The notes under the pieces were generated by a model. That model had not been told where the DNA came from, did not search any database, and saw only the letters and a list, made by a program, of their open reading frames with translations. A program made the translations under genes and the position numbers. A stretch of 64,000 nt of DNA from an uncultured Bacteroides sp. (GTDB lineage Bacteria; Bacteroidota; Bacteroidia; Bacteroidales; Bacteroidaceae). Of the stretch, positions 1 to 13,732 are shown piece by piece. Positions within the stretch are counted from its first letter, which is position 1; the number at the start of each line of letters is the position of its first letter. Where the stretch lies: positions 1 to 64,000 of the forward strand of contig CALUOR010000020.1 in assembly GCA_944322285.1 (NCBI GenBank). The letters run 5' to 3'.

Positions 1-270
1 CTAAGTTAATAAAAATCAGCGATATGCGCAACTTTTTAAACATAATTCTCAAACCAAATTAATTCCGCCAACGGGTTTATATATATAATATGGTATAGCA
101 TTCTATTCATAAAACATCATTTTTTAAATTCTCGCCAAAAGTAATAGTAAATATTAAAAAAGGAAAATTTTTAAAAGAAAAAGTATGTATTTATTAGAGA
201 AGAAACCGAGAAAAAGAGAATACGCATCCAGACAAATTCATTGGATAAGCAAAAATGAAATATTTCCTGT
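1..270. other. AT-rich upstream region, no gene seen
   Basis: Strongly AT-rich sequence before the first RiPP promoter. I see no plausible coding frame or RNA gene. Short frames on either strand here lack a signal peptide, a domain or a credible start. Confidence 0.5.
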
Positions 271-325
271 TTTTTTCTGCCCAGTCCGATGCCGTTGGAC
301 TCCGGTGGTATAGTTTTGCGGCAAA
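271..325 (+). promoter_or_regulatory. RiPP-type promoter with AGTCC-N9-GGACT palindrome
   Basis: A T-run (271-276) is followed by the inverted repeat AGTCC (283-287) / GGACT (297-301), a 9-nt gap, and a Bacteroidales-type -7 box TAGTTTTG (311-318), then CGGCAAA. The same parts at identical spacing precede the second precursor at 6973-7027. The palindrome covers the place of the usual -33 box, which suggests that an activator or repressor binds there. The start codon of the precursor is 62 nt downstream of the -7 box. Confidence 0.65.
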
Positions 326-380
326 AGAACTAGTTCTAACAATCAATAAATTATTATTCACTTTAAAATGTATTTTCATT

Positions 381-581
381 ATGAGTACGCAAAAAGAAAC
401 GAATGGTCTGAAACAACAAGACAACAAAGGTTTTAACGAAGAAGAGTTACTTAGCCAACAAGAGGCTGAACAAGTAGAGGGCGGCATTGATAATATCAAG
501 ATTAACAATCCTGATGATGGTGATCCTGATGATAAAAATTATTTTCAATGTGAATGTAATAATAACAAATGTGGTCAATGA
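381..581 (+). CDS. GG-leader RiPP precursor peptide (locus A)
   Basis: A 66-residue peptide with an acidic, glutamine-rich leader ending EAEQVEGG (residues 28-35), the double-glycine signal cut by C39 peptidase exporters. The predicted 31-residue core is rich in Asp and Asn and carries three cysteines near its end (CECNNNKC). This matches the layout of GG-Bacteroidales radical-SAM-modified precursors as a family. I chose the ATG at 381 rather than the upstream in-frame ATG at 255, because the longer form would begin upstream of its own promoter box. A radical SAM maturase gene follows after a palindromic repeat. No exporter gene lies in this locus, so export probably uses the one at 9651. The modification type is unknown. 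Confidence 0.75.
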   Translation: MSTQKETNGLKQQDNKGFNEEELLSQQEAEQVEGGIDNIKINNPDDGDPDDKNYFQCECNNNKCGQ

Positions 582-616
582 TTTGACTGCAATTTTGTTT
601 ATGCATCGTTGATTAA

Positions 617-766
617 GAGGTGTATCAAAATGCAAGATTGCTGTCATGCTGTCATATTGAGCGGAGCAAAACGGAGTCGAAACATCTCACGTAATACTAT
701 ATGAGACCCCTTGACTGTGTTCGGAGTGACAAAATGATAGTGACTTTACATTGTGATACACCCTCA
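617..766. repeat. Palindromic MITE-like element between precursor and maturase
   Basis: The ends are near-perfect inverted repeats: GAGGTGTATCA at 618-628 and its partner TGATACACCCTC near 754-765. An inner palindrome runs from about 649 to 740 and shares a CTGTCAT..GAGCGGA..GGAGTCGAA pattern with the repeat at 5110-5218. The right end overlaps the first codons of the longest maturase frame, which argues for the downstream ATG at 783. As RNA it would fold into a long hairpin and could reduce read-through from precursor to maturase. Confidence 0.6.
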
Positions 767-782
767 TATAAAAATAGCCGAT

Positions 783-1982
783 ATGAAAAATAGTTTGTTT
801 AATATATTCTTTGAACAGGGAAATGTAATATTAGGGTACAACACACTGTATAACACCGCCATATCGATTAAAAAAGAAGTTTATGCATTGACTGCGAAGA
901 TGTTGCAATATGATTTAATGCATATAGTAAATCAATCTTCTCGTATTTATAAAGTAATGGCCAATGAAAAATTTATAGTCAATGACGATGTGGACGAGCT
1001 TTCTATTGTAGCCTCATATTTGGAGCAAGAGAATAATAAAGAATCATTATATGAGATCATTATAAATCCTACTATAAATTGCAATTTTCATTGTTGGTAT
1101 TGCTATGAAACGCATATTGCTGGTGCTAAAATGTCTCTTGAAACTAGAGAAAACGTTATCAGATACATAAAATCAACAATAGATACGCATAGGCAATTGA
1201 AAGTACTAAGGATACATTGGTTTGGAGGGGAACCCCTAATGTATTTTAAAGATATTGTGAAACCGATACTTGCTGAAGCAAATGCTTACGCTACTATGTA
1301 TGGTATCAAACTCATTTCCGGATTTACAACTAATGGTTATTTTCTAAATGAAAATATCTTGGATTTTTGTGTACACCATTCTGTAAAGCATTTCCAAATA
1401 ACGCTAGATGGGAATAAAGAACGACATAACTTGATACGATTTACAACACCTGGTTCGAACACATACGATAAGATTATATCTAATATTATTTTATGTGTAA
1501 AAAAGGGATTTTCGGTTACGGTCCGAATCAATGTCTCTGCTGAGACCAGGATGAAAGTTACAGAATTATTGAAAGATTTTTTCGACTTAACTTTAGCGGA
1601 AAGAAAACTTCTACATTTTTCTATTCAGAAAGTGTGGCAGGAAAATGATTCTGTTATAAATGATATGGATGCTATAGTCAACGATATTAGGGATAACGGT
1701 TTTGAATGCGTTACTTTTTATAGCAATCCTAATACTATACGAAATACCTGCTATGCAGACAAAAAGAACAGCGTTACTATTAATTATAATGGAGATGTGT
1801 TTAAATGTACAGCTAGGGATTATACAGAAGACAATTGTGAGGGAAAATTACAAGATGATGGCTCTATAAGATGGAAAGATACATATGCTAAACGAAAAAA
1901 AATCAGTGTATTCAATTATGCTTCTTGTTTATCTTGCCCCATTATGCCAATTTGTAATGCAGGATGTTCCCAAAAAAAATAG
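783..1982 (+). CDS. Radical SAM/SPASM RiPP maturase (locus A), frameshifted 3' end
   Basis: A 399-residue radical SAM enzyme expected to modify the peptide encoded at 381. The [4Fe-4S]/SAM motif CNFHCWYC spans residues 100-107 and a GGEP motif lies in FGGEPLMYF. The C-terminus has the SPASM pattern C-x13-G-x4-C, then CLSCPIMPICNAGC (Cx2Cx5Cx3C). The final SPASM cysteine is missing in this frame: the frame stops right after an A8 run. A -1 shift on that run adds 37 codons to 2092, including the expected FCLY cysteine. The start is set at 783 because the upstream GTG (753) lies inside the palindromic repeat. It is either a slippage-controlled gene, a pseudogene, or a sequencing error. Confidence 0.75.
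   Translation: MKNSLFNIFFEQGNVILGYNTLYNTAISIKKEVYALTAKMLQYDLMHIVNQSSRIYKVMANEKFIVNDDVDELSIVASYLEQENNKESLYEIIINPTINCNFHCWYCYETHIAGAKMSLETRENVIRYIKSTIDTHRQLKVLRIHWFGGEPLMYFKDIVKPILAEANAYATMYGIKLISGFTTNGYFLNENILDFCVHHSVKHFQITLDGNKERHNLIRFTTPGSNTYDKIISNIILCVKKGFSVTVRINVSAETRMKVTELLKDFFDLTLAERKLLHFSIQKVWQENDSVINDMDAIVNDIRDNGFECVTFYSNPNTIRNTCYADKKNSVTINYNGDVFKCTARDYTEDNCEGKLQDDGSIRWKDTYAKRKKISVFNYASCLSCPIMPICNAGCSQKK
1972..1979 (+). other. A8 slippery run, possible -1 frameshift site
   Basis: The reading frame runs CAA AAA AAA TAG over 1971-1982, so the A AAA AAA heptamer fits the classic -1 ribosomal slip pattern. The -1 frame continues IEHPISFCLY and ends at TAA 2090-2092, restoring the last cysteine of the SPASM domain. 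RNA polymerase slippage (A8 to A9) or replication slippage would give the same product. Confidence 0.6.
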
Positions 1983-2109
1983 AACATCCAATTTCTTTTT
2001 GCCTATATAACAATATGGAGGAGAAGATCGATTTTGCCAAACGTGTTTTGCTTGAAAGAATGTACCAAGCCTCTCATAAGGCAAAGATTTAAATTGAAAG
2101 AATCATTAG

Positions 2110-2139
2110 TTGTTATTTAATCACCTTTCCCTATCTTTG
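2110..2139 (+). promoter_or_regulatory. Bacteroidales-type promoter
   Basis: TTG at 2110-2112 and TATCTTTG at 2132-2139 are separated by 19 nt, matching the -33/-7 promoter layout of Bacteroides. It lies 26 nt upstream of the outer-membrane receptor start at 2166. Confidence 0.6.
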
Positions 2140-2165
2140 TACATTATAGATTCTTTAGATATAAT

Positions 2166-4487
2166 ATGAAAACGAGCTATCTGTTTTTTATTCCGATATT
2201 GTCAGTCCTGAATATAGCTGTGGCACAAGCTCAGAATTTGATAGGTAAGATTGTAAATGAGGCCAATGAACCTGTAGAGTTTGCCAACGTGGTCCTGTTT
2301 GCCTTGCCGGACTCCGCTTTTCAGACCGGATCGGTAAGCGGGGCAGACGGACGCTTTCAACTTTCGTCAGAATTATCCAACGGTTTACTGAAAGTGTCAT
2401 GCATCGGGTACACCACTTTATATAAAACCTATGCGGTGGGCGATGAGCTATTATTGCAGTTGACTCCGGATACCCAAATTCTGGACGAAATAGTCGTGAA
2501 AGGCAATCTGCCTGTAACCCGAATGAAAAACGATGCCTTAGTGACCCATGTGGAGAACAGTGTACTAAGCAAGGCCGGCTCGGCAAATGACGTGTTGGAA
2601 AAACTGCCAGGTATCGTCAAGGAAGAAGACTCCTACGAGGTGATAGGGAAAGGAAAGCCCGTCTTTTACATCAATGGCAGGTTAGTGCGGGATTTATCGG
2701 AATTGGAGCAGCTCAGTTCCGAAGAGATAAGGAATGTCGAAGTCATACAAAATCCGGGCGCACGTTATGATGCCACCGTAAAGGCAGTGATACGTATCCA
2801 GACCGTCAGACGGCAAGGGGAAGGATGGGGCATTAATTTACGTTCAAGCTATTATCAAAACAAGCATACGGACCTGATAGAGCAGGCGAACATGAATTAT
2901 CGATATAAAAATATGGATGTGTTCGGGATGCTTCAATATACTCAAATAGAAACCGAACAGGACGCCCGCATCTACCAGATGATGCAGGCGAATGATTTAT
3001 GGGAACATCACAATCTTTCCACGTTTGAAAGCCAAAGGCGCTACCTGACTGCCGATCTGGGAATAAACTTCCAGCTGAATGAAAAGAACTTTGTCGGTAT
3101 GAAATACAGCCTGAGCGCCTGGCTAAAATCAGAAGGGACTGACTGTACACAAAACCATACGCTGAAGAACCACACCTATTATGACAACATACAGAACCGC
3201 TCCCTGTCAGACATGGAAGCAGATCCGGACCATGGCTTAAACTTATATTACAGTGGACAGATTAACAAACTGAATATTGACTTTAACGCAGATTATTATC
3301 AAGACAAGTATGAAACAAACCGATTGACTGATGAGACCAGCACTTCCATGGAGAATCGCAACGTACATGCGACTAGCAATGTGAGAAACCGTCTGGCTGC
3401 CGGCAAGTTGGTCGTATCATTCCCATTGGGTGGAGGCTCTTTGGCTCTCGGCGGCGAAGGCACTTATACAAACCGTCATGACGATTATCTGAACGTGGAG
3501 AACTATGTGCCCGCTTCATACAGCCAAATAAAGGAAATCAATGTTGCCGGCTTTGCCGAATACAACCGCAGCTTCCCATGGGGTGACTGGTCATTGGGAT
3601 TGCGGTACGAGCATGTGAAGTTCAATTACTACAAGGACAAAGTTCGGATTGATGAACAAAGTCGGACGTTCGACAATGTGTTTCCCAACTTTTCTTTCAA
3701 TGCCCGGTTGGGTAACGTACAGACTCGCTTGAGTTATACTGCTAAAACAGTGCGGCCATCATATCGTCAGTTGAGCAATAATGTGACTTATATAGACCGT
3801 TATTCTATGCAGACCGGAGATCCCACACTGCGGCCTACGTTCATTCACGATGTCACATTGACTGGTGTCTGGCGTTTTTTGCAGGGAGGCATTTCATTTT
3901 CGCAAATGAAAGACTGGATTTTTTATTGGGGTGACTTAATGGATGACAACAATCCGCAACTGATGCTCCGCTATCGCAATTGGGACAAATCGGTGCCTTT
4001 GCTCACTGTGTTCCTTTCCGCTTCTCCTACCATCGGGTGCTGGTCACCCATGTGGAATCTGGCAATAGAAAAACAATGGCTGACTATAGAATCGCAAGGC
4101 CAGCCTTATAAAATGAACACGCCACTTTTCAGGCTGACATTTAACAATACGTGGGAACTTCCGAAAGGATTCCTAATTAGTCTGGACTCGTGGCTTAGAA
4201 GTAAGGGGGCTTCCCAAAATACATATATGGAGAAGATGAAAGGCTGTGTGAACATCTCTGTTAGGAAAAGCTTTCTGCAAGACGCCCTTAGCGTAGAACT
4301 GAAAGGCACAGACTTGTTTGATACCAACAGAGAATATAATTACTTACGTAGTGGTTACTATTCTATTTATCAGGAAAATCATCTGGACAGAAGAGAATTC
4401 TCCCTGACCGTACGCTACAAGTTTAACACAACCAAGAGCAAGTACAAAGGAACTGGGGCAGGAACCGCCCAGAAGAACCGTATGTAA
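2166..4487 (+). CDS. TonB-receptor-like outer-membrane beta-barrel protein
   Basis: A 773-residue outer-membrane protein with a signal peptide (residues 1-22, ending AQAQ). A CarboxypepD_reg-like domain follows (about 24-100, starting LIGKIVNEANEPVEFANVVL), then a short plug-like domain (about 110-215) and a long barrel of the OMP_b-brl_3 type rich in aromatic residues. It has its own promoter and follows the locus A maturase by only 73 nt beyond the frameshifted stop. The substrate cannot be read from sequence. A role in uptake of, or immunity to, the peptide is conceivable but not shown. The 844-residue protein at 18798 belongs to the same broad family. Confidence 0.75.
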   Translation: MKTSYLFFIPILSVLNIAVAQAQNLIGKIVNEANEPVEFANVVLFALPDSAFQTGSVSGADGRFQLSSELSNGLLKVSCIGYTTLYKTYAVGDELLLQLTPDTQILDEIVVKGNLPVTRMKNDALVTHVENSVLSKAGSANDVLEKLPGIVKEEDSYEVIGKGKPVFYINGRLVRDLSELEQLSSEEIRNVEVIQNPGARYDATVKAVIRIQTVRRQGEGWGINLRSSYYQNKHTDLIEQANMNYRYKNMDVFGMLQYTQIETEQDARIYQMMQANDLWEHHNLSTFESQRRYLTADLGINFQLNEKNFVGMKYSLSAWLKSEGTDCTQNHTLKNHTYYDNIQNRSLSDMEADPDHGLNLYYSGQINKLNIDFNADYYQDKYETNRLTDETSTSMENRNVHATSNVRNRLAAGKLVVSFPLGGGSLALGGEGTYTNRHDDYLNVENYVPASYSQIKEINVAGFAEYNRSFPWGDWSLGLRYEHVKFNYYKDKVRIDEQSRTFDNVFPNFSFNARLGNVQTRLSYTAKTVRPSYRQLSNNVTYIDRYSMQTGDPTLRPTFIHDVTLTGVWRFLQGGISFSQMKDWIFYWGDLMDDNNPQLMLRYRNWDKSVPLLTVFLSASPTIGCWSPMWNLAIEKQWLTIESQGQPYKMNTPLFRLTFNNTWELPKGFLISLDSWLRSKGASQNTYMEKMKGCVNISVRKSFLQDALSVELKGTDLFDTNREYNYLRSGYYSIYQENHLDRREFSLTVRYKFNTTKSKYKGTGAGTAQKNRM

Positions 4488-4590
4488 AAGCCTCTTCCCC
4501 GCAAATTTTGGGTAAGTGCCTATTTTCAGTTTGTTTTTGAACATACATTATTGAAAGATAAGTAAGTGAACTGAATTAACTTATACTATG

Positions 4591-4680
4591 GCACACAGAT
4601 AACACTGATTTAACAGATGACCACAGATGTTATTAAAAAATAATCTGTGCAAATCAGTCTCATCTGTGTCATCTGTGTGC
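4591..4680. repeat. Imperfect palindrome of CACAGAT words
   Basis: Perfect 10-bp arms GCACACAGAT (4591-4600) and ATCTGTGTGC (4671-4680) enclose further inverted CACAGAT/ATCTGTG words around an A-rich centre. It lies 3' of the outer-membrane protein gene and may act as a transcription end signal. No gene lies in it. Confidence 0.55.
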
Positions 4681-4853
4681 TATAAGATAATTTTGATTAG
4701 TTACTTATGAAAAAAATGTACATTTCATTTTAAAAACTATTCAATATTGACTCGTTAAATTGTTAATTAGTGTATACATCTGGAGGCAAAAATGGTTTCT
4801 AAATACCACTATATTTGCTATGTGCTTGAATATTAGCTGTTTATGCTCTTTCA

Positions 4854-4964
4854 AAACACTGCGCTATTTGCTCTCAATCAGCGCAGTGTTTATACCCCAA
4901 ATACTGCGCTATTTTGAGAGAAACACTGCGCTGATTGAGAGCAAATACTGCGCTGATTGAGAGG
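4854..4964. repeat. 22-bp tandem array, word ACTGCGCT
   Basis: Direct units of 22 bp start at 4854, 4899, 4921 and 4943, each with A(C/T)ACTGCGCT followed by a CT- or GA-rich tail. The unit between the first two is inverted (core AATCAGCGCAGTGTTT), giving a perfect 25-bp inverted repeat between 4867-4891 and 4921-4945. There are no unique spacers, so it is not a CRISPR. It lies in the 1.1 kb gap between convergent genes. Confidence 0.7.
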
Positions 4965-5056
4965 AAAAAATTCGCCCGTATTTCAGAATGAGAAAAGATT
5001 GTACAAGATGTGACGAGTTTATACTTCGAACGGGATGAATTTGTGCATTAAATGGG

Positions 5057-5264
5057 AATTTAGCGGGGCGGAGCCCCGCAGCTACAAGTTACGAGCTACA
5101 AGTGAGTATCTGTCATCCTGAGCGGAACGCAGTGGAGTCGAAGGATCTCACATAAAGTATGTTCCTGTAAACGTGAGATTCTTCGACTACGCCCTTCGGG
5201 CTTCGCTCAGAATGACAGAATTAACAAACAGCTTTACTCGTACTCGTAGCTCGTAGCTTGTAGC
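5057..5264. repeat. Nested palindromic repeat with GC-rich hairpin
   Basis: It starts with a 23-bp hairpin-forming segment (5057-5079; GCGGGGC/GCCCCGC arms) that recurs exactly at 13001-13023. Outer arms of AGCTACAAG-type words (5080-5117 and 5240-5264) enclose inner arms 5110-5151 and 5173-5218, which share the CTGTCAT..GAGCGGA..GGAGTCGAA pattern with the repeat at 649-740. Such dispersed palindromes are common in Bacteroidales intergenic DNA. Confidence 0.6.
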
Positions 5265-5358
5265 TCGTCACTAATAAATTATCATTTAACTCTTAATACC
5301 TCTGCTAACTTATGAATTTCGGCTTCATAAAAACTTCTTTTTTCCTAAGTATATTTTA

Positions 5359-5442
5359 TAACCGAAGGTTTCGGTTGTAAAACCGAAAGTTTAAGTTGTA
5401 CAACCGAAAGCTTCGGTTATACAACCGTAAGCTTGAACACAA
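5359..5442. repeat. 21-bp tandem array, word AACCGAAAGCTTCGGTT
   Basis: Four consecutive 21-bp units (5359, 5380, 5401, 5422), each based on the near-palindrome AACCGAAAGCTTCGGTT and decaying towards the last unit. The 5443-5618 stretch beyond holds no gene that I can see. Confidence 0.65.
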
Positions 5443-5618
5443 CTTTCTACTTAGCCTCATCCGGTTTTCCGGTAAAGCTCATTCGGTTTTAAAGGCAAGT
5501 GCACGGAGATATTTACTTGCGTAAGAAACTAATTATATTTAGTTTATACGATAAATGGGAATTTAAACCACTGATGGACACGGATTAAACAACATGACAG
5601 AATGAAAGCCATTCCTCA

Positions 5619-6884
5619 TTATGACACATCCTCCTCTTCCACTCGCAATGCCTCATAATCATTGTATAACAGACGCGAACTCTTATTAGGTATGCTCAAT
5701 ATCTGCATGGCACCGTAAGTTCCCGTAATAGTCAGCATACCATAATAAAACAGTAGACTAATGAATATACTCGGATCTGTCAACTGATTAATAGAAAAAG
5801 AAGTGCCTAATTTACTCCTCACACTACCATCATTTACAATTTTTAATAGAAATTCCTTATAACTGCTGTCAAATGAATTCAAGCTAATTAAACGATTCAG
5901 TGGGGTGTATTGCGCCCGTATATCTCGATTCAACATTTCGTTGGGAGGACATCCGTGTTGGATATAGTGATTCACATAGTAAGTCACCATGTCGCTGTTG
6001 AACATCTTCGGGTCGGTGTAGACCACGTCCTCCGAGAAGCAGTAACCGTCATACCAAGGTTTCATTTCGGCTATCAGACTGTCTTCGTCCGCCTGCAACA
6101 CGCCTACCGACTGGTAGTAGCGAATCATCTCTCGTACTTCCGTCTCGCTGAATCCTAACATTTGGTTGAAGCGTCCGTCCATGGTAATGCTCGTGGCGAT
6201 GTTGTAACCGCTGGTCACATCGTCCATAGTCACAGGGCTGACGCCCAACATCAGGATGCGGTCGAAGTTGCCTTTAAACTTCTTGAACACGTCCCGGTAG
6301 AAGCCGCTGGCGTGGGTCATGGCGTGGTAGATGGCTTCACCTTGCTCGTTGAGCACCGTGTTGGTGAAGTTGTCATACTCGTCCACAATCAAATACAGTT
6401 TGCAGCCCTGCCGTTGCGCCGCCGAGTGGACGTAGTTCATAATGGCGCTTGCGGTGTCGTAACGTGCAAGTCCCTCCAAATAGCCGGCCGGGTAATAAGC
6501 CGCGTATTTTTCGGCGAAAGCCCTGTACTGTACGATCATGTAATCATCAAAGTTCTTATCCAGCGTTTCGATGTCACCCCCTGTCTGCGAGAAGTCCAGA
6601 TGGAGCACCTGGAACTTTCCCTGCCACTGGGTAGGATGCTGCCCTATCCAGAGTCCGTCAAAGAGCCGGGCGAAATTGTCTTTCTCCTCGATGTCGTAGT
6701 AATAACGCAACATGGAGAGGAACAGACTCTTGCCGAAACGTCGCGGACGGATGAGGAACAGGAAACTGGCCGCGTCCTCCAAGACGGGGATATAGGAACT
6801 CTTATCTACAAAATAATAATTCTCCTCCCGGATGCGCCGGAAGTTCGAGATGCCATACGGAAGTGCTTTGTATGCGGTTGCCAT
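5619..6884 (-). CDS. AAA-ATPase-like protein lacking its nuclease domain
   Basis: A 421-residue protein of the AAA-ATPase_like family (PF09820 type). The Walker A region is RPRRFGKSLFLSM (about residues 46-58) and the Walker B region is LYLIVDEYDNF (about 163-173). Family members usually run to 520-580 residues and end in a PD-(D/E)XK nuclease-like domain. Here the protein stops after LLYNDYEALRVEEEDVS, so that domain is absent, probably through a 3' deletion. These multi-copy genes are frequent in Bacteroidales and their role is not established; defence or mobile-element links are only suggestions. It is transcribed away from RiPP locus B. Confidence 0.7.
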   Translation of the reverse strand: MATAYKALPYGISNFRRIREENYYFVDKSSYIPVLEDAASFLFLIRPRRFGKSLFLSMLRYYYDIEEKDNFARLFDGLWIGQHPTQWQGKFQVLHLDFSQTGGDIETLDKNFDDYMIVQYRAFAEKYAAYYPAGYLEGLARYDTASAIMNYVHSAAQRQGCKLYLIVDEYDNFTNTVLNEQGEAIYHAMTHASGFYRDVFKKFKGNFDRILMLGVSPVTMDDVTSGYNIATSITMDGRFNQMLGFSETEVREMIRYYQSVGVLQADEDSLIAEMKPWYDGYCFSEDVVYTDPKMFNSDMVTYYVNHYIQHGCPPNEMLNRDIRAQYTPLNRLISLNSFDSSYKEFLLKIVNDGSVRSKLGTSFSINQLTDPSIFISLLFYYGMLTITGTYGAMQILSIPNKSSRLLYNDYEALRVEEEDVS

Positions 6885-6910
6885 GATACGTTCTCATTTG
6901 AATGTTTGTA

Positions 6911-6918
6911 CAAAGATA
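6911..6918 (-). promoter_or_regulatory. -7 box of the AAA-ATPase gene
   Basis: TATCTTTG on the minus strand, 26 nt upstream of the ATG at 6884. No clear TTTG -33 box is present at the usual distance. Confidence 0.45.
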
Positions 6919-6972
6919 ATGAAATTTCGCTTGCTCAGGAGGACTGTTGAACAAAAACGTCTGTTTATGCTC

Positions 6973-7027
6973 ATTTTTTTGTCCAGTCCTGAGCCACTGG
7001 ACTCTGCAGCTTTATATTTGCGGCAAA
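6973..7027 (+). promoter_or_regulatory. RiPP-type promoter with AGTCC-N9-GGACT palindrome, copy 2
   Basis: T-run (6973-6980), AGTCC (6985-6989), GGACT (6999-7003), a 9-nt gap, -7 box TATATTTG (7013-7020) and CGGCAAA (7021-7027). All distances equal those of the promoter at 271-325. The arms extend here to GTCCAGT/ACTGGAC. The precursor starts 29 nt after the -7 box. Confidence 0.7.
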
Positions 7028-7048: not shown

Positions 7049-7264
7049 ATGATGGAAAAGAAACAAGAATCGCAAGAGGAACTGAGAAAGAATATTTCCG
7101 GTTGCCTGCAAGCGGAGGAAGAACCGCTGAACTTGGACGAACTGATGGACGTGGAAGGAGGAAAGGAACCGGAGGATCCGGTAAAGACTTGTGGCTTAGG
7201 CTGCTACCTGTCCGGCATGTCCGGCATAAAAGATGTGGAAAATGAACCGGACGCCCAATCTTGA
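7049..7264 (+). CDS. GG-leader RiPP precursor peptide (locus B)
   Basis: A 71-residue peptide (or 70 from the second ATG). The leader ends LNLDELMDVEGG at residue 38. This has the L/D/E-rich helix and double glycine recognised by C39 peptidase exporters. The predicted core has 33 residues and a compact KTCGLGCYLSGMSG segment with two cysteines, a likely target for the adjacent radical SAM enzyme. The start of the maturase gene overlaps its last codons, so translation is probably coupled. The type of crosslink is unknown. Confidence 0.8.
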   Translation: MMEKKQESQEELRKNISGCLQAEEEPLNLDELMDVEGGKEPEDPVKTCGLGCYLSGMSGIKDVENEPDAQS

Positions 7265-8768
7265 TCAAGTGTATGTGCTCAATCCGTACTATCGGTTGAG
7301 GCCGGACATACATCGGGTAGTGCTGTATGCCAAAGGTGGGAACGAACAGGACTGTTCCCGCCATTGGTGTACCTTTATCCATCCGCTGCATGCCGTGCTA
7401 CTGAGTTTCTTCACTTATAAGCGGACGCTGAAAGAGAATTTGGCCTTGCTAAGTGATTTTTTCTCCCGTCCGGAAAGCGAAGTAACCCAATGGGTGAAGC
7501 GCTTTATAGAGAATGAAGGACCGATACAAGCCACAAGCGGAGGGACGATTATTCACTTTCCCAAACGTGTACTGATAGAGGTAAAAGACGGAATGGAGGA
7601 AAGCGCTTTTACACAGACGGACGCCAACCGCTTTCTGTGGAAACATCTGGACCTGCGGACGCGAAGGCTCTACACCGGTCCGCTTATCGTTACGCTGATG
7701 CTGACCAACTGTTGCCGGACTCATTGTCGGTATTGCTATGCGGATACCACTACACGGGTAGCGAATCCGCTTTCTACCGCACGCTGGCTGGAACTGATAC
7801 GGGAGGCAGCCCGGCTGGAAGTGGCAAGCGTCAATCTGATGGGTGGGGAAGTGTTTCTGCATCCGGATTGGCCCTTATTGCTGCAAGAGACGGTAAAACT
7901 GGATATGGAACCGGATTTTCTTTCTACCAAAATTCCACTGAACCGGGCAATGGTCAACAGCTTGAAAGCCTGCGGATACAAAGGCGTGATTCAGGTATCG
8001 CTGGACGCGGCGTCAGATGCGATTGTCAATCCACTGACCGATACGAAACCGGGATATGTCCGTGCGGTGCTGGAAGGACTTCGCTTGTTGGATGAAAGCG
8101 GACTGAATTATCAGGTGGCTACCGTACTGACCACTTCGAACAGCCATTGGAAAGTACTGGAGGCTTTGTATGAAGAACTGTGCCGTTTGAAGCGTTTGCA
8201 GGACTGGCGGCTTGTTCCGGTGAGCAACTCCATCACCAAGCCTTACGCGGACTTAGCACGCCTGAAACCGGACAGACGACAGTTGGAAGAACTGTTTGGA
8301 GAGGTGGAAAGGTCCATAAAGGGGAGGTCTCCTTTTCCCATAATTTTGGGGAAGGACGTGTTGGACAGACACTATGGCCAGACAACAGGCGGCAGTTGCC
8401 GTTTCGAGGGTAGTGAATGTTCTGCGCTGAACAGCCATCTGTTTGTATTGCCCGATGGGAAGGTGACTATCTGCGAACAGCTTTATTGGAACCCGCGTTT
8501 CCTTATCGGCGATGTGACAAGCATGACATTGAAAGAAGTATGGAACTCGAAAAAAGCCCACAGCCTATGCTCTTTGCGGCAAACTGACCTACAGCCGCAA
8601 AGTCCTTGCAGCCGTTGCGCCCTCTTTGAGCAATGCTTCGGGTATCGTAACCGTTGCTGGAGTGACATTATCAAGGCATACGGACCGGATTGCTGGGACT
8701 ATCCGGATCCAAGGTGCGCATGGGCACCAACAATGAAATACAATTTAGGATATGGGAATGGATTATAG
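7233..8768 (+). CDS. Radical SAM/SPASM RiPP maturase with N-terminal RRE-like region (locus B)
   Basis: 511 residues (508 if the ATG at 7242 is used). Residues 1-120 look like a leader-binding winged-helix (RRE/PqqD-like) region, an inference from length and pattern. The radical SAM motif is CRTHCRYC (residues 161-168). The GGEP position reads MGGEVFLHP. SPASM cysteines follow: C396-x12-G-x4-C414, then C459, C462, C468, C475, and C487/C495 near the end, enough for two auxiliary clusters. It overlaps the precursor gene by 32 nt and the next gene by 17 nt, so the four genes from 7049 to 11852 form one coupled operon. It most likely installs a crosslink in the Cys-containing core. Confidence 0.8.
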   Translation: MWKMNRTPNLDQVYVLNPYYRLRPDIHRVVLYAKGGNEQDCSRHWCTFIHPLHAVLLSFFTYKRTLKENLALLSDFFSRPESEVTQWVKRFIENEGPIQATSGGTIIHFPKRVLIEVKDGMEESAFTQTDANRFLWKHLDLRTRRLYTGPLIVTLMLTNCCRTHCRYCYADTTTRVANPLSTARWLELIREAARLEVASVNLMGGEVFLHPDWPLLLQETVKLDMEPDFLSTKIPLNRAMVNSLKACGYKGVIQVSLDAASDAIVNPLTDTKPGYVRAVLEGLRLLDESGLNYQVATVLTTSNSHWKVLEALYEELCRLKRLQDWRLVPVSNSITKPYADLARLKPDRRQLEELFGEVERSIKGRSPFPIILGKDVLDRHYGQTTGGSCRFEGSECSALNSHLFVLPDGKVTICEQLYWNPRFLIGDVTSMTLKEVWNSKKAHSLCSLRQTDLQPQSPCSRCALFEQCFGYRNRCWSDIIKAYGPDCWDYPDPRCAWAPTMKYNLGYGNGL

Positions 8769-9654
8769 ATTTGCATTTGATGTCCGCCCTCAGACGGGCG
8801 AGCTACGGGTATCGCTACGCCTGGCCGAACGGATGTTTGAGCAGGGAAACACCGTATATTACAATTACTTTGACAGTCCGGTGTTCCGTGGGAGACTGAT
8901 AGGCCGCGGTATCTTGCTTGTGAAATATCCGAGTGATTTATGGCTCTCAACGCCCGACCTTGTGTTTCTGGACCCGGTATTCCGCAAGCGGGCTGATGTG
9001 TACCGCCACTTCGGCAGCATAGTCGCCTACATAACGGTGCAGCGAGAACAGGACGAACTGTGTCTGGATGAAGCAAACGGAGACTTATGGATCCATCTGC
9101 CCCCTTTGTCATGCAAACCTTTCTCGCACAGTCCGCGACAGGCGGATTTTATCGGAGAAATAAACAGAATAAAAGAACAGCAACCCGGAACGACAGTCAT
9201 CGGTGTGGCCGGTGAAGGAATGCAGCAATGCTACCGGGTGTTGGATTATTGCGCACGCCATTGTCCCGACTTCCGTTTCATCCTCTCAACCGGAAAACAG
9301 CGGATAGAGGAAACGTGGTTTGCCTGGCCGGAAAACGTCAGCGTCTATCGACAGCAGGAACTACAGCCTTTGCTGCCTCTATGCGACTTGATACTGACGG
9401 ACGAGAGCAGTGTCGCGTGGATGGACGGCGTGTTTGCCAGTGTACCCACGTGGCAGTTGTCGGCCAACGAACGGAAACACCTTACTCCCTCACGCTTGGA
9501 ACGCCGGATACGCGACATGCTGGCCGACCATCCTCAACTGGTGGAGCGACAAAAGCAGTTGAGGCTATTCTACAGGGAACAGAACCGGAAACTGGATGCA
9601 TTGATAGGCCGGCTTGGCGACTATCTGGAACAACATCAACCGAAAGAAGTATGA
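8752..9654 (+). CDS. Glycosyltransferase-like protein of RiPP locus B
   Basis: 300 residues. The overall pattern resembles a GT-B fold glycosyltransferase: an N-terminal half with GRLIGRGILL and a predicted Rossmann region, then TTVIGVAGEG and a C-terminal CDLILTDESSVAWMDGVFAS segment like the nucleotide-sugar site of GT-B enzymes. No radical SAM cysteine motif is present, so it is not a second SAM enzyme. Its start overlaps the maturase, and its stop overlaps the exporter start (ATGA), so it is tightly coupled to the operon. It may glycosylate the peptide, or may be a catalytically idle partner. Family assignment is by pattern only. Confidence 0.45.
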   Translation: MGMDYRFAFDVRPQTGELRVSLRLAERMFEQGNTVYYNYFDSPVFRGRLIGRGILLVKYPSDLWLSTPDLVFLDPVFRKRADVYRHFGSIVAYITVQREQDELCLDEANGDLWIHLPPLSCKPFSHSPRQADFIGEINRIKEQQPGTTVIGVAGEGMQQCYRVLDYCARHCPDFRFILSTGKQRIEETWFAWPENVSVYRQQELQPLLPLCDLILTDESSVAWMDGVFASVPTWQLSANERKHLTPSRLERRIRDMLADHPQLVERQKQLRLFYREQNRKLDALIGRLGDYLEQHQPKEV

Positions 9655-11852
9655 AACGATTTCCATTTTACAAACAATTGGACGCCATGGATTGCGGACC
9701 GACCTGCCTGCGCATGATAGCGGCCTATTATGGCAAGCGCTTCTCCGTGCAGCAGCTACGAGACCACGCTTACATTCAACGTACCGGCGTCAACCTGCTT
9801 GGCATCAGCGTTGCGGCGGAAAGCATCGGGATGCGTACGACCGGTGTGCGTACCACCCTGGAAAAACTGAAACAGCAATCCAAACTGCCGTGCATCCTGC
9901 ATTGGCAACAAGAGCATTTCGTCGTACTGTACCGGGTAGAGCGAAAGAAGGGGAAAACATACTTCTACATAGCCGACCCGGCTTACGGACTGCTGAAATA
10001 CGAAGAAGAGGAGTTGCGGAAATGTTGGATAAGCACCCGGAAGGACGGCATGGAGAAAGGTGTAGCCATGCTGGTGGAGGTAACGCCCCAATTCTATGAG
10101 ACAGAACCCATCAAGTATGAAAAACTTTCCCTATGGTACTTGCTGCACTACGTGCGCCCTTACCGCAAAGCCATGCTGCAATTGGTATTGGGACTATTGG
10201 CCGGCAGCGTGCTGCAACTGGTATTTCCTTTCCTGACGCAGACCATTGTAGACCAAGGCATTGGACACCGCAACCTGAATTTTATCCAACTGGTGCTGGC
10301 GGCACAGCTGATGCTGGTGTTTAGCCGTACCTTGATAGAAGTGATACGGCGTTGCATTCTGCTGCATGTCAGCACACGGGTCAACGTGTCGCTCATATCG
10401 GACTTTCTTACTAAGCTGATGAAACTCCCCATGCGGTTCTTTGACAGCAAATTGGCAGGCGACCTGATACGCCGCATTGAGGATCACGGACGCATTGAGA
10501 GTTTTCTTACGCAGTCTGTGCTACAGATACTGTTTGCCACGCTTACCATCGTTATTTTTGGCAGCGTGCTGGCCGTGTACAACTGGAAAATATTCCTTGT
10601 ATTTCTGTTCTTCAGTCTGCTCTATGTCGGATGGGTCATGCTGTTCATGCGCAAACGTGCCGATCTGGACAAAAAGAATTTTGAGCAGATGGCCGTCAAT
10701 CAAAATAACCTGATCCAATTAATATATGGTATGCAGGATATTAAATTGCTGGGATGCGAGCAACAAAAACGCTGGGAATGGGAGAACATACAGGCTTCGC
10801 TGTTTCATATCAACATGAGTTCGCTGAACCTAGGGCAGTGGCAACAGGTGGGAGCGGTACTTATTAACGAGGTGAAGAATATCCTGATAACCGTCCTGTC
10901 CGCTACAGCGGTGTTGCAAGGGAACATCACGTTAGGCGTTATGCTTTCCATTCAATACATCATTGGGCAAATGCAGGGACCGGTAAGCCAGTTTGTCTCT
11001 TTCATGCAGGCTACGCAGGATGCCAAACTCAGTTTGGAACGTTTGGGCGAAATACACGGTAAACCGGACGAAGAAGCGGACAACGGCTTGACAAATACAG
11101 ACTTGTCCGGGAAGGAAGGCATATCGTTGCGAAACTTGTCTTTCACGTACGGTTCGGAAAAATCGCGTCTGATTATCAAGAACCTGTCACTGGATATTCC
11201 CGCAGGAAAAACAACCGCCATCGTGGGATTGAGCGGAAGCGGAAAAACGACACTGATCAAACTGATGCTTGGGTTTTATCCGCCTACGGGAGGAGACATC
11301 CGCATAGGCGGACATTCGTTGCAAAAGATAAGTTTCAAAGAGTGGCGAAAACATTGCGGAGTAGTGATGCAGGAGGGATTCATCTTTGGCGACACCATAG
11401 CCAACAACATCGCTCCGGACGGGGAAGCGATAGACCGGGAACGCATGGCCTATGCAGTGGAAATGGCCAATATCCGGGATTTCATTGAGGCTTTACCACT
11501 GAAATACAATACCAAGATAGGCAATACCGGACAAGGATTGAGCCAAGGTCAGAAACAGCGTATCCTGATAGCGCGTGCCATCTACCGCAACCCGGACTAC
11601 TTGTTCTTTGACGAAGCGACCAATGCGCTTGATACGGATAACGAAAAAGTCATCCAACAACACTTGGATCAATTTTTCCGCAATAAGACCGTAGTCATCG
11701 TGGCGCACCGTTTGAGTACCGTACGTAACGCAGATCAGATAGTCGTATTGAAGGAAGGTGAAATAACGGAGCAAGGCACGCATGAATCGCTGATAGCACA
11801 GCAAGGAGATTATTACAGACTTGTCAAGAACCAATTGGAATTAAGCGCTTAA
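9651..11852 (+). CDS. C39 peptidase-containing ABC exporter (PCAT)
   Basis: 733 residues starting at the ATG in the ATGA overlap; the longer upstream frame is an artefact. The N-terminal C39 peptidase has an oxyanion Gln9, catalytic Cys15 in DCGPTC, His89 and Asp109, so it should cut after the GG of the leader. Six membrane helices follow (about 160-440). The ATPase domain has Walker A GLSGSGKTT, signature LSQGQKQR, Walker B LFFDEATNALD and an H-loop AHRLSTVR. It works with the HlyD protein encoded next. As the only PCAT in the window it may also serve the locus A peptide. Confidence 0.9.
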   Translation: MKRFPFYKQLDAMDCGPTCLRMIAAYYGKRFSVQQLRDHAYIQRTGVNLLGISVAAESIGMRTTGVRTTLEKLKQQSKLPCILHWQQEHFVVLYRVERKKGKTYFYIADPAYGLLKYEEEELRKCWISTRKDGMEKGVAMLVEVTPQFYETEPIKYEKLSLWYLLHYVRPYRKAMLQLVLGLLAGSVLQLVFPFLTQTIVDQGIGHRNLNFIQLVLAAQLMLVFSRTLIEVIRRCILLHVSTRVNVSLISDFLTKLMKLPMRFFDSKLAGDLIRRIEDHGRIESFLTQSVLQILFATLTIVIFGSVLAVYNWKIFLVFLFFSLLYVGWVMLFMRKRADLDKKNFEQMAVNQNNLIQLIYGMQDIKLLGCEQQKRWEWENIQASLFHINMSSLNLGQWQQVGAVLINEVKNILITVLSATAVLQGNITLGVMLSIQYIIGQMQGPVSQFVSFMQATQDAKLSLERLGEIHGKPDEEADNGLTNTDLSGKEGISLRNLSFTYGSEKSRLIIKNLSLDIPAGKTTAIVGLSGSGKTTLIKLMLGFYPPTGGDIRIGGHSLQKISFKEWRKHCGVVMQEGFIFGDTIANNIAPDGEAIDRERMAYAVEMANIRDFIEALPLKYNTKIGNTGQGLSQGQKQRILIARAIYRNPDYLFFDEATNALDTDNEKVIQQHLDQFFRNKTVVIVAHRLSTVRNADQIVVLKEGEITEQGTHESLIAQQGDYYRLVKNQLELSA

Positions 11853-11868: not shown

Positions 11869-12999
11869 ATGGAAGAAATCTACAAACCGAATGATCCGGA
11901 ACGGATAGAAGTCTATCACACGGAAAACAACGATATGCTGGGTGACATGCCCGGCTGGCTAATCTACACGGGTAGCTACACGGTGTACGGACTGATTATA
12001 CTCTTGGTAATAGGAAGCGCCTTGTTTCAATACCCGGACGTGGTGAAACAACACATCCGTATTGATGATACGGGTAGTGTGGAATGGATTACATCGAACC
12101 ATACCGGTATGATAGATCGTTTTCTGGTAGAAGACGGAGCACCGGTACGGGCAGGCGACACACTGGGTATCTTCAAGAACACTGCATCCTTGGAAGATGT
12201 CAAGACCTTCTGCCAAGTGCTGACCAAGGTGGAATATTATTATCGGACGCTCAATGCCGATTACCTGCAAAACTATCCTTTCGACTTGATTATGGGCGAC
12301 ATGACTCCGGCTTATGAACAATTTACACAGGCTGTCAGAAATTGTCTGATGTATCACGAATTTGACTTATATCCGCAGAAAAAGAAATTTTTGGATGAGG
12401 AACTGAAGATTCTTCATGCAAGCGGAAAAGCGGACGAACTGAGCCTGTTGAACGTCAAGCGGGAACTCTTTGACTTGAAAATCGCCCATCAAATGGAGGT
12501 CGCAAAGAATCTCCGGACATTGGAACTGGCGTATGAAAACATGGTGAACCAGCTGAAGACTTGGGACAACACCTACCTGATAAAATGCCGAAACAGTGGT
12601 ACCGTACTATGGGGAAAAAGCTGGAGCTTGGACGAACGAATTGCGGAAGGTGATACGCTTTGTACCGTTCTGTCAGAAAAACGAGGTACGCCAACCGGAC
12701 ATGTGTTGGTAGATGAAGCGCAAATAGCAAATATAGCGGTAGGCGATAAAGTGAACATTGAACTGAACAAATATCCCTCCCAATCGTATGGCAAACTGAC
12801 GGGCCAAGTGGCATCTGTCTCCTTTATTCCTCACAATAAGAACTACGCCATTGAGATAGCCTTTCCGAACGAGTTGAGTACTACAAACGGCAAGAAGATA
12901 AATTATGAGGTTGGGCTATCCGGACAGGCGGAGATTATTACACTAAGCCAAAGTATATTGAGCCGGATCTTTGCCCCTATAAAAGAGGTTTTTAAATGA
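11869..12999 (+). CDS. HlyD-family periplasmic adaptor of the peptide exporter
   Basis: 376 residues. A cytoplasmic N-terminus is followed by one membrane helix (about 37-57, IYTGSYTVYGLIILLVI) and a lipoyl/barrel-sandwich half near 65-100 (VEWITSNHTGMIDRFLVEDG). A coiled-coil region (about 110-220) and the second lipoyl half plus beta-barrel (about 235-360) follow. It starts 16 nt after the PCAT stop and should link the exporter to an outer-membrane channel. No TolC-like gene lies in this operon; the one at 27984 belongs to an RND operon. Confidence 0.85.
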   Translation: MEEIYKPNDPERIEVYHTENNDMLGDMPGWLIYTGSYTVYGLIILLVIGSALFQYPDVVKQHIRIDDTGSVEWITSNHTGMIDRFLVEDGAPVRAGDTLGIFKNTASLEDVKTFCQVLTKVEYYYRTLNADYLQNYPFDLIMGDMTPAYEQFTQAVRNCLMYHEFDLYPQKKKFLDEELKILHASGKADELSLLNVKRELFDLKIAHQMEVAKNLRTLELAYENMVNQLKTWDNTYLIKCRNSGTVLWGKSWSLDERIAEGDTLCTVLSEKRGTPTGHVLVDEAQIANIAVGDKVNIELNKYPSQSYGKLTGQVASVSFIPHNKNYAIEIAFPNELSTTNGKKINYEVGLSGQAEIITLSQSILSRIFAPIKEVFK

Positions 13000-13183: not shown

Positions 13184-13732
13184 ATGACTGAAGATGAATT
13201 GAAGAAAATCAAAGATTCGTTTGTCCGGACAGACGAAACAGGCGGGGCATCAGCAGCTTGTCTGATGACTGCCATTAAGTACTATGGTGGAACAACTACG
13301 TGGGAGCAGGTGAAAGAGTGGTGCAAGAGCGAGCCGGGACATGCTGCTCACGCGCTGACAGAAGCAGCCAGGCGAGCCGGATTTACCGTTGTGCCCGACC
13401 TGATGGACATAGAACGGTTGAAAAAGCATGATATTCCCACCATTCTTTACATGTATAATGACTTCGATAGGATGAACTACGCAGTATGCTACGGCATGCA
13501 CGAAAATCGTTTTATCGTATGGGAGCCGGAGTGGGGCCCCATGCAATATTGGGAATCCGAATTGAAAACGCTTTGGAAGTATTGCATCGCCTATAAACTT
13601 TATCCGGACCGAAGTATCATAAATCCGACACTGGAATGGTGGCAGATTGATGACTGGGACCGAAGGCTGAAGCATTGTATGGACCGCTGCAAGGAGTTTA
13701 TCGAATTGGAGATATTGCCTCGGTTCCGATAA
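13184..13732 (+). CDS. Stand-alone degenerate C39 peptidase-like protein
   Basis: 182 residues that align over their first 140 with the C39 domain of the exporter at 9651: AACLMTAIKYYGG matches PTCLRMIAAYYGK, AVCYGMHENRFIVWEPEWG matches VVLYRV..FYIADPAYG. All three catalytic residues are replaced: Cys by Ala22, His by Asn98, Asp by Glu114. It therefore cannot cleave, and resembles the C39-like domains (CLD) that bind substrate in some ABC exporters, but as a separate soluble protein. No signal peptide or membrane helix is seen. It lies 184 nt after HlyD, beyond a palindromic repeat. A leader-docking or immunity role is inference. Confidence 0.7.
   Translation: MTEDELKKIKDSFVRTDETGGASAACLMTAIKYYGGTTTWEQVKEWCKSEPGHAAHALTEAARRAGFTVVPDLMDIERLKKHDIPTILYMYNDFDRMNYAVCYGMHENRFIVWEPEWGPMQYWESELKTLWKYCIAYKLYPDRSIINPTLEWWQIDDWDRRLKHCMDRCKEFIELEILPRFR

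Follow-up and report, generated by a model that had tools for sequence, protein, structure and literature searches.

What reads a promoter layout shared by two peptide genes that lie 6.7 kb apart? The question is raised by a 64,000-nucleotide (nt) stretch of DNA, hereafter the window, from an uncultured Bacteroides sp. (contig CALUOR010000020.1, positions 1 to 64,000, of assembly GCA_944322285.1). Two differing precursor genes with a double-glycine (GG) leader, for ribosomally synthesized and post-translationally modified peptides (RiPPs), are each preceded in it by the palindrome AGTCC-N9-GGACT. A sequence-only reading had proposed that a specific regulator recognizes this palindrome and co-expresses both peptides. 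Our analysis supports that interpretation as a whole, the observation itself being confirmed and above chance, and a candidate regulator can now be named: a small helix-turn-helix (HTH) family, here called B, which is linked to the palindrome by association and by matching variation. We consider it fairly probable that the palindrome is the operator of B, and that B is an activator whose regulon comprises GG-type secreted peptides and an outer-membrane partner.

The palindromic promoter and its target genes

The layout at the two precursors (palindrome, 9 nt, a -7 box and CGGCAAA) agrees base by base (Table 1). Both -7 boxes, TAGTTTTG and TATATTTG, have the TAnnTTTG form of the Bacteroides sigma-ABfr promoter, which carries TAnnTTTG at -7 and TTTG near -33 (PMC7366714). 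The T-run that was said to stand 12 nt before AGTCC is present at both sites, but 12 nt is only the average of starts 13 and 11 nt before AGTCC, with 6 (site 1) and 4 (site 2) bases in between. A sigma-54 promoter was ruled out by eye, the GG-N10-GC spacing being missing at both sites. Palindromes with up to two mismatches are at chance level in the window (20, compared with a mean of 18.96 in shuffled sequences), and the mismatched palindrome was discarded as a search tool, with 869 genome matches at two mismatches or fewer against 1009 in the control.

Across its 3.70 Mb the genome has three exact palindromes (control, two), each followed by TAnnTTTG after exactly 9 nt. The third site (G000:C56:283-318) is without CGGCAAA and stands ahead of a 776-amino acid (aa) outer-membrane barrel gene, whose product, like that of window 2166-4487, matches PF14905. 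The contigs of the window (C20, window 1-283) and of the third site (C56, L004:1-283) both start exactly 282 nt before the palindrome, and the two sequences are unlike. If a promoter block had merely been duplicated or inherited in common, with no living regulatory site, this would account for the CGGCAAA that follows the -7 box at both window sites; however, likeness outside the box is scattered when the three site regions of the genome are aligned, and elsewhere the two arms vary in concert at constant spacing. We regard such an origin as very improbable indeed.

The extended pattern, AGTCC-N9-GGACT-N9-TAnnTTTG, has 11 exact sites in 8 genomes of a 158-genome genus set that includes the window's own genome, against none for the reversed pattern used as control. 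Three of the 11 belong to the own genome, and G006, G099 and G153 carry sites that are near copies of each other. Downstream lie GG-leader precursors at 8 of the 11, barrel genes at 2 and a lipoprotein-like open reading frame (ORF) at 1 (L007), so that the combined-pattern search put forward as a check by the sequence-only reading returns mainly GG-leader precursors, as it had predicted. Allowing one mismatch adds 16 sites, compared with 11 in the control; these are mostly chance, and GG-leader ORFs follow 4 of the 16 (G016, G036, G112 and G140). At one exact box (L018:1940-2750, in G074) a 154-aa lipoprotein-like ORF is followed by a 76-aa Gly/Ala-rich ORF that, by eye, is bacteriocin-like and without a GG leader.

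Among 399 genomes of the family there are 9 extended sites in 6 genomes (control, 1). Four of these were already known; the 5 new ones precede a GG precursor, a barrel gene, an early-ending precursor-like ORF and two other ORFs. When the pattern was made slightly stricter and run once over a collection of 84,980 genomes, it yielded 37 matches in 34 stretches. Downstream of the matches lie GG-leader ORFs in 16 cases (15 identified by script and L072 by eye), barrel genes in 4 (by script for L073 and L076, by eye for L045 and L052) and a radical S-adenosylmethionine (SAM) gene in 1 (L051). The matches with GG targets span Bacteroides, Phocaeicola, Dysgonamonadaceae, Prevotellaceae and Cytophagales, and Thermoflexibacter ruber, a member of the Cytophagales, has six sites. 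Seven records of other phyla contain matches with none of the GG, barrel or radical SAM targets. One record labelled Lachnospiraceae (L063) has a GG-target match together with relatives of B, of two neighbouring families, A and C, and of radical SAM and barrel genes; since this gene set is of Bacteroidales type, the contig is probably mis-binned. Judged from these matches, the window's two sites are a small part of a putative promoter type that is present in several Bacteroidota lineages.

Family B as candidate reader of the palindrome

Gene families were compared over 34 site loci, from which chance-looking matches and repeats on the same contig had been dropped by eye; the window entered with its first 20 kb, and the overlapping pairs L017/L064 and L023/L065 are still among the 34. 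The families in common include barrel proteins (20 loci), radical SAM proteins (19), C39 exporters (10), A (10), B (8, counting proteins of at least 90 aa) and HlyD-like proteins (7). A is a TPR lipoprotein with a membrane span, a coiled coil and, by eye, a LuxR-like or HTH-like C-terminus. B is a small stand-alone HTH protein with a DNA-binding domain of about 75 aa, and a profile search of the loci first compared detected it in 14 distinct genomes or records. No curated family cut-off was reached by B (four proteins against Pfam, three against NCBIfam). Pfam HTH_11 (PF08279) gave the four proteins 16.1, 21.4, 12.0 and 14.5 bits at a threshold of 25; this weak match runs across the recognition-helix region, a likeness to stand-alone HTH proteins of that type, which resemble the WYL/DeoR-type winged HTH, whereas B differs from them in its sub-threshold score, in having no visible effector domain and, often, in a tail that resembles a GG leader. 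A search by sequence for relatives of solved structure gave none that was convincing (best, NolR, E 0.012).

The distribution of B links it to the palindrome. Strong matches (E < 1e-30) occur in 12 of the 158 genus genomes, and B is carried by 7 of the 8 exact-site genomes as opposed to 5 of the 150 others (Fisher p 1.4e-8, uncorrected for kinship). Four of these five have a variant box before a GG precursor, which differs by one mismatch in G016, G036 and G140 and reads AATCC-N9-GGATT-N9-TACTTTTG in G075.

The palindrome could instead be read by the larger neighbour A, with B in some other role. A is present at 10 of the 34 site loci, its gene in G036 has a variant box of its own (AATCC-N9-GGATT, 9 nt before TACATTTG), and a relative of A (E 6.8e-112, 39% identity) is encoded in the own genome, where B was not detected. 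However, A is not among the genes common to the Cytophagales, Tannerella and Dysgonamonadaceae loci, the lineages covered by the search for A (5-8 kb each), Pfam finds TPR repeats and no HTH in it, and the half-site variation tracks the recognition helix of B (see below). We find A quite improbable as the reader. With B as the reader, the box at the G036 A gene suggests feedback on the regulator operon, and the predicted regulon is wider than two peptides, since it also takes in a barrel gene and, in this relative, the A gene itself.

Two loci show A in other arrangements. In Phocaeicola vulgatus ATCC 8482 (L050:4280-6176) it is split over two reading frames, with B and C each in one open frame. 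On contig C19 of the own genome (L176:1470-4773) the A relative is followed by a C-like secreted-protein gene and then by an apparent B12-type radical SAM gene (by eye), and no B was seen.

The geometry of the box is preserved near B. In 29 loci chosen by motif or by B, the combination of a 19-nt palindrome and a 9-nt gap has 16 matches (two of them A/T-rich and likely chance), and the next-fullest combinations, 21 nt with 8 (7 matches) and 17 nt with 10 (6 matches), have the identical centre. A second set, which excludes L102, L151 and L152, consisted of 71 B-profile loci among the matches listed (70 distinct, one identical locus having been dropped). Within 600 nt downstream of B these loci show a peak at the same centre, with 4 to 7 matches per cell (cells share sites) at a mean of 0.36 per cell, and upstream of B no cell with the same -7 pattern exceeds 3. 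Counting palindromes near B without the -7 box was also tried and rejected, as it gave no 19-nt peak (61 downstream and 54 upstream; shuffled mean 45, maximum 65).

Half-sites other than AGTCC occur at the same geometry near B, namely CGTCC (in loci of a single genus, g36, and in L170), AGTGC and ACTGC. Of the 70 listed distinct B loci, 16 contain a 19-nt palindrome with perfect arms of the N[GC]T[CG]C classes, compared with 0 of 70 for the reversed control. Residue 37 of B corresponds to base 4 of the half-site, R with G and S with C, in all 16 of these loci, and in 32 of 32 once the count is extended to 9 genus partners and to 7 loci whose arms are imperfect. Residue 36 (R/K versus others) likewise matches base 2 (purine versus C) in 31 of the 32; the exception, L139, has its palindrome 932 nt away and without a -7 box. 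The residue-37 rule had been fixed before 20 more loci were added; strict palindromes are present in 4 of these, each with the base 4 that the rule calls for (L162 without a -7 box).

Several results weigh against B as the reader. The weakest point of the assignment is the own genome, where B was not detected (best E 0.33; assembly 90% complete); the contig starts 282 nt before the sites prove nothing here, and our proposal presumes that the species does carry a B gene. G076 has B, yet no box was found in 16 kb. Seven GG-type precursors in B genomes (L104-L109 and L122) are without TAnnTTTG in the 130 nt upstream, some of which may be read from the upstream gene. The remaining 16 of the 37 collection matches precede something else, and exact sites ahead of unrelated genes include L007, L040 and L044. 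In most of the listed distinct B loci (54 of 70), the 1.9-3.2 kb of sequence contains no strict palindrome of any of the four classes. Among the 16 strict palindromes, 4 are placed either upstream of B or at a distance from every -7 box (L139, L142, L145 and L162; the residue 37/base 4 match is 12 of 12 without them), only 4 have TAnnTTTG at exactly 9 nt (L079, L080, L130 and L157), and others have a degenerate box, a 10-nt gap or no box (L125 and L126). In addition, the half-site classes were partly recognised on the same loci that were later counted, and a tree built without the recognition columns contains 5 matching residue-37/base-4 changes, 1 of them on supported branches, so that a sign test cannot reach significance. 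The residue 37/base 4 pattern is striking, with apparently few independent origins and little proven independence.

Activation, repression and a tail resembling an export leader

We propose that B, a small protein with a presumed winged fold, binds the palindrome as its dedicated operator. Two B subunits would contact one 5-nt arm each, recognition-helix residues 36 and 37 selecting half-site bases 2 and 4. The bound dimer would sit over the usual -33 position and most likely offer a contact to RNA polymerase, and in the own genome B would jointly switch on precursor 1, precursor 2 and the outer-membrane barrel gene.

The palindrome had also been claimed to replace the -33 box. Its centre lies 18.5 nt upstream of the -7 box, and it covers the -33 region. 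At a spacer of 18-22, TTG is found in 0 of 26 sites versus 71 of 497 other TAnnTTTG occurrences in the 29 loci (14%); at 16-17 it is found in 3 of 26. The sites therefore share the canonical -7 box with the sigma-ABfr promoter but differ from it in a fixed-distance palindrome and in having no TTG, or TTTG, at the usual -33 spacing. To this extent the claim stands, but as an argument for replacement it is weak: the missing TTG counts for little, because the palindrome itself fixes part of that stretch, and this too tells against our proposal. Re-checking the -33 evidence slightly lowered our estimate for an activator and slightly raised that for a repressor.

As a repressor, B would bind the same operator and block sigma at -33, and idle C39 exporters would capture or cleave its GG-like tail, so that peptides would be made only when export capacity is free. 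The operator does overlap the -33 region, and outside the genus a C-terminal motif resembling a GG leader is seen in many B proteins, such as LSEDEMEKITGG (L054) and NDEAKEIFGG (L124). Tails were scored with a leader matrix that omitted the same locus, against 118 background GG contexts. A scorable G[GA] tail is present in 21 of the 48 listed B genes at phylum and class level, and 17 of the 21 exceed 95% of the background (area under the curve, AUC, 0.89); the leaders themselves, scored in the same way, reach 45 of 51 with an AUC of 0.93. A GG-peptide ORF lies within 1 kb downstream on the same strand in 25 of these 48 genes, compared with 5 of 48 in antisense and 3 of 48 upstream and divergent. 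Both the tails and the downstream ORFs would suit a repressor. However, most B proteins of the genus have no clear GG tail, and a repressor would have no need for one exact distance to the -7 box while the arms change. This constant distance points to a contact with RNA polymerase and so to activation, which we hold to be more likely than repression; a repressor appears possible but on the unlikely side.

Within the genus a GG peptide is encoded within 1 kb downstream of 4 of 22 B genes (antisense control, 1 of 22), and several B genes follow A and C. Some g36-type loci have an operator that reaches into the end of the B gene, and operator DNA there encodes the part of the B tail that follows the GG. 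At L017:325-582 and L019:2541-2798, B closes with MGG and about 12 further residues, cysteine among them, an ending that resembles a very small leader with its core. B relatives in L094-L096, L153, L154, L156, L163 and L167 have neither a GG tail nor a GG peptide within 1 kb downstream, and may serve other genes.

The GG-like tail hints at a coupling of B to the C39 exporter. B might then be a transcription factor with its own C-terminal GG-type export leader, which the C39 exporter of the cluster would recognise or cleave; transcription would thereby be tied to export capacity across much of the phylum, and the two-residue specificity code would keep the circuits of different lineages separate. 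We put this forward tentatively and think it unlikely. Should the export tail indeed serve as a sensor, transcription would be matched to secretion in a new manner.

Known systems and the window cluster

The Bacteroidales radical SAM RiPP clusters described earlier combine a GG-leader precursor with a C39 exporter, a membrane fusion protein and outer-membrane proteins (PMC10352776). Their gene content is similar to that of the window, with TPR-type genes in two of them (BGC2, BGC9) and an HTH gene in a third (BGC3), whereas in the main text of that paper 'palindrom' occurs 0 times and 'promoter' once, in the reference list (PMC10352776). Bacteroidetocins are also GG-leader peptides of Bacteroidetes, with an exporter that has a double-glycine peptidase domain, but they have 15-aa leaders and are class IIa-like, whereas the window leaders are 35 and 38 aa long and stand beside radical SAM genes (PMC6671954). 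PM2 of B. thetaiotaomicron, with 75 coding genes enriched for oxidative stress and elements at -10 and -30, resembles our sites in a near-palindromic element upstream of transcription starts, as compared by description rather than by motif letters (PMC7366714).

We recognised no description of the box or of B in the titles and abstract openings of the open PubMed Central papers listed, subscription papers and preprints lying outside this search, and found no account in the literature searched of how GG-peptide production is controlled in Bacteroidota. The present analysis offers a concrete putative operator, a testable specificity code and, as candidate regulator, a family that has no curated name; the search pattern finds GG-peptide genes from the promoter side.

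In the window itself, both GG precursors have an adjoining radical SAM maturase gene, and a C39 exporter and a membrane fusion protein are encoded nearby; the cluster is thus recognised as a Bacteroidales GG-leader radical SAM RiPP cluster, here from its genes alone (Table 1). Neither precursor matches TIGR04149, the NCBIfam family of GG-Bacteroidales precursors, up to E 0.1.

Table 1. Promoter elements and genes of the peptide cluster in the window
Feature	Position	Strand	Basis
T-run upstream of site 1	270..276	+	sequence; by eye, similar T/A runs upstream of many other sites
Palindromic operator 1 (putative), AGTCC-N9-GGACT	283..301 (AGTCC 283-287, GGACT 297-301)	+	exact pattern
Site 1 gap, 9 nt	302-310	+	sequence
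Site 1 -7 box, TAGTTTTG	311..318	+	9 nt past palindrome
Site 1 CGGCAAA	319-325	+	sequence; precursor 1 ATG at 381
GG-leader precursor 1, 66 aa, leader end GG at residues 34-35	381..581	+	translation; no NCBIfam or Pfam match
Radical SAM peptide maturase 1	783..1982	+	PF04055 E 1.7e-15; TIGR04463 E 1.7e-48, 165 bits, below cut-off of 525
Outer-membrane beta-barrel protein with carboxypeptidase-regulatory-like domain	2166..4487	+	PF14905 E 5e-51; relatives in 20 of 34 compared site loci
T-run upstream of site 2	6974..6980	+	sequence
Palindromic operator 2 (putative), AGTCC-N9-GGACT	6985..7003 (AGTCC 6985-6989, GGACT 6999-7003)	+	exact pattern
Site 2 gap, 9 nt	7004-7012	+	sequence
Site 2 -7 box, TATATTTG	7013..7020	+	9 nt past palindrome
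Site 2 CGGCAAA	7021-7027	+	sequence; precursor 2 ATG at 7049
GG-leader precursor 2, 71 aa, leader end GG at residues 37-38	7049..7264	+	TIGR03949 weak, E 0.038
Radical SAM/SPASM maturase 2	7233..8768	+	PF04055 and PF13186, both above cut-off
300-aa cluster protein	8752..9654	+	no family match; relatives in 5 of 34 site loci, window counted
C39 peptidase-containing ABC exporter	9651..11852	+	PF03412, PF00664, PF00005
HlyD-like membrane fusion protein	11869..12999	+	PF13437
Stand-alone C39 peptidase-like protein	13184..13732	+	PF03412 E 1.6e-13

By eye, the window also encodes a hybrid sensor kinase and two AraC-type regulators. A repeat with 22-nt phasing (ACACTGCGCTGATTGAGAG) at 4853-4975 is found at 30 places genome-wide with at most one mismatch (reversed control, 0), including one that precedes the C19 relative of A by about 0.5 kb. 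A repeat resembling repetitive extragenic palindromic (REP) elements (gtcat..gag..gtcgaa..atctcac) is seen by eye between genes at 630-760 and 5108-5215, and three 21-nt direct repeats around AACCGAAA, which also form overlapping inverted repeats, lie at 5354-5434.

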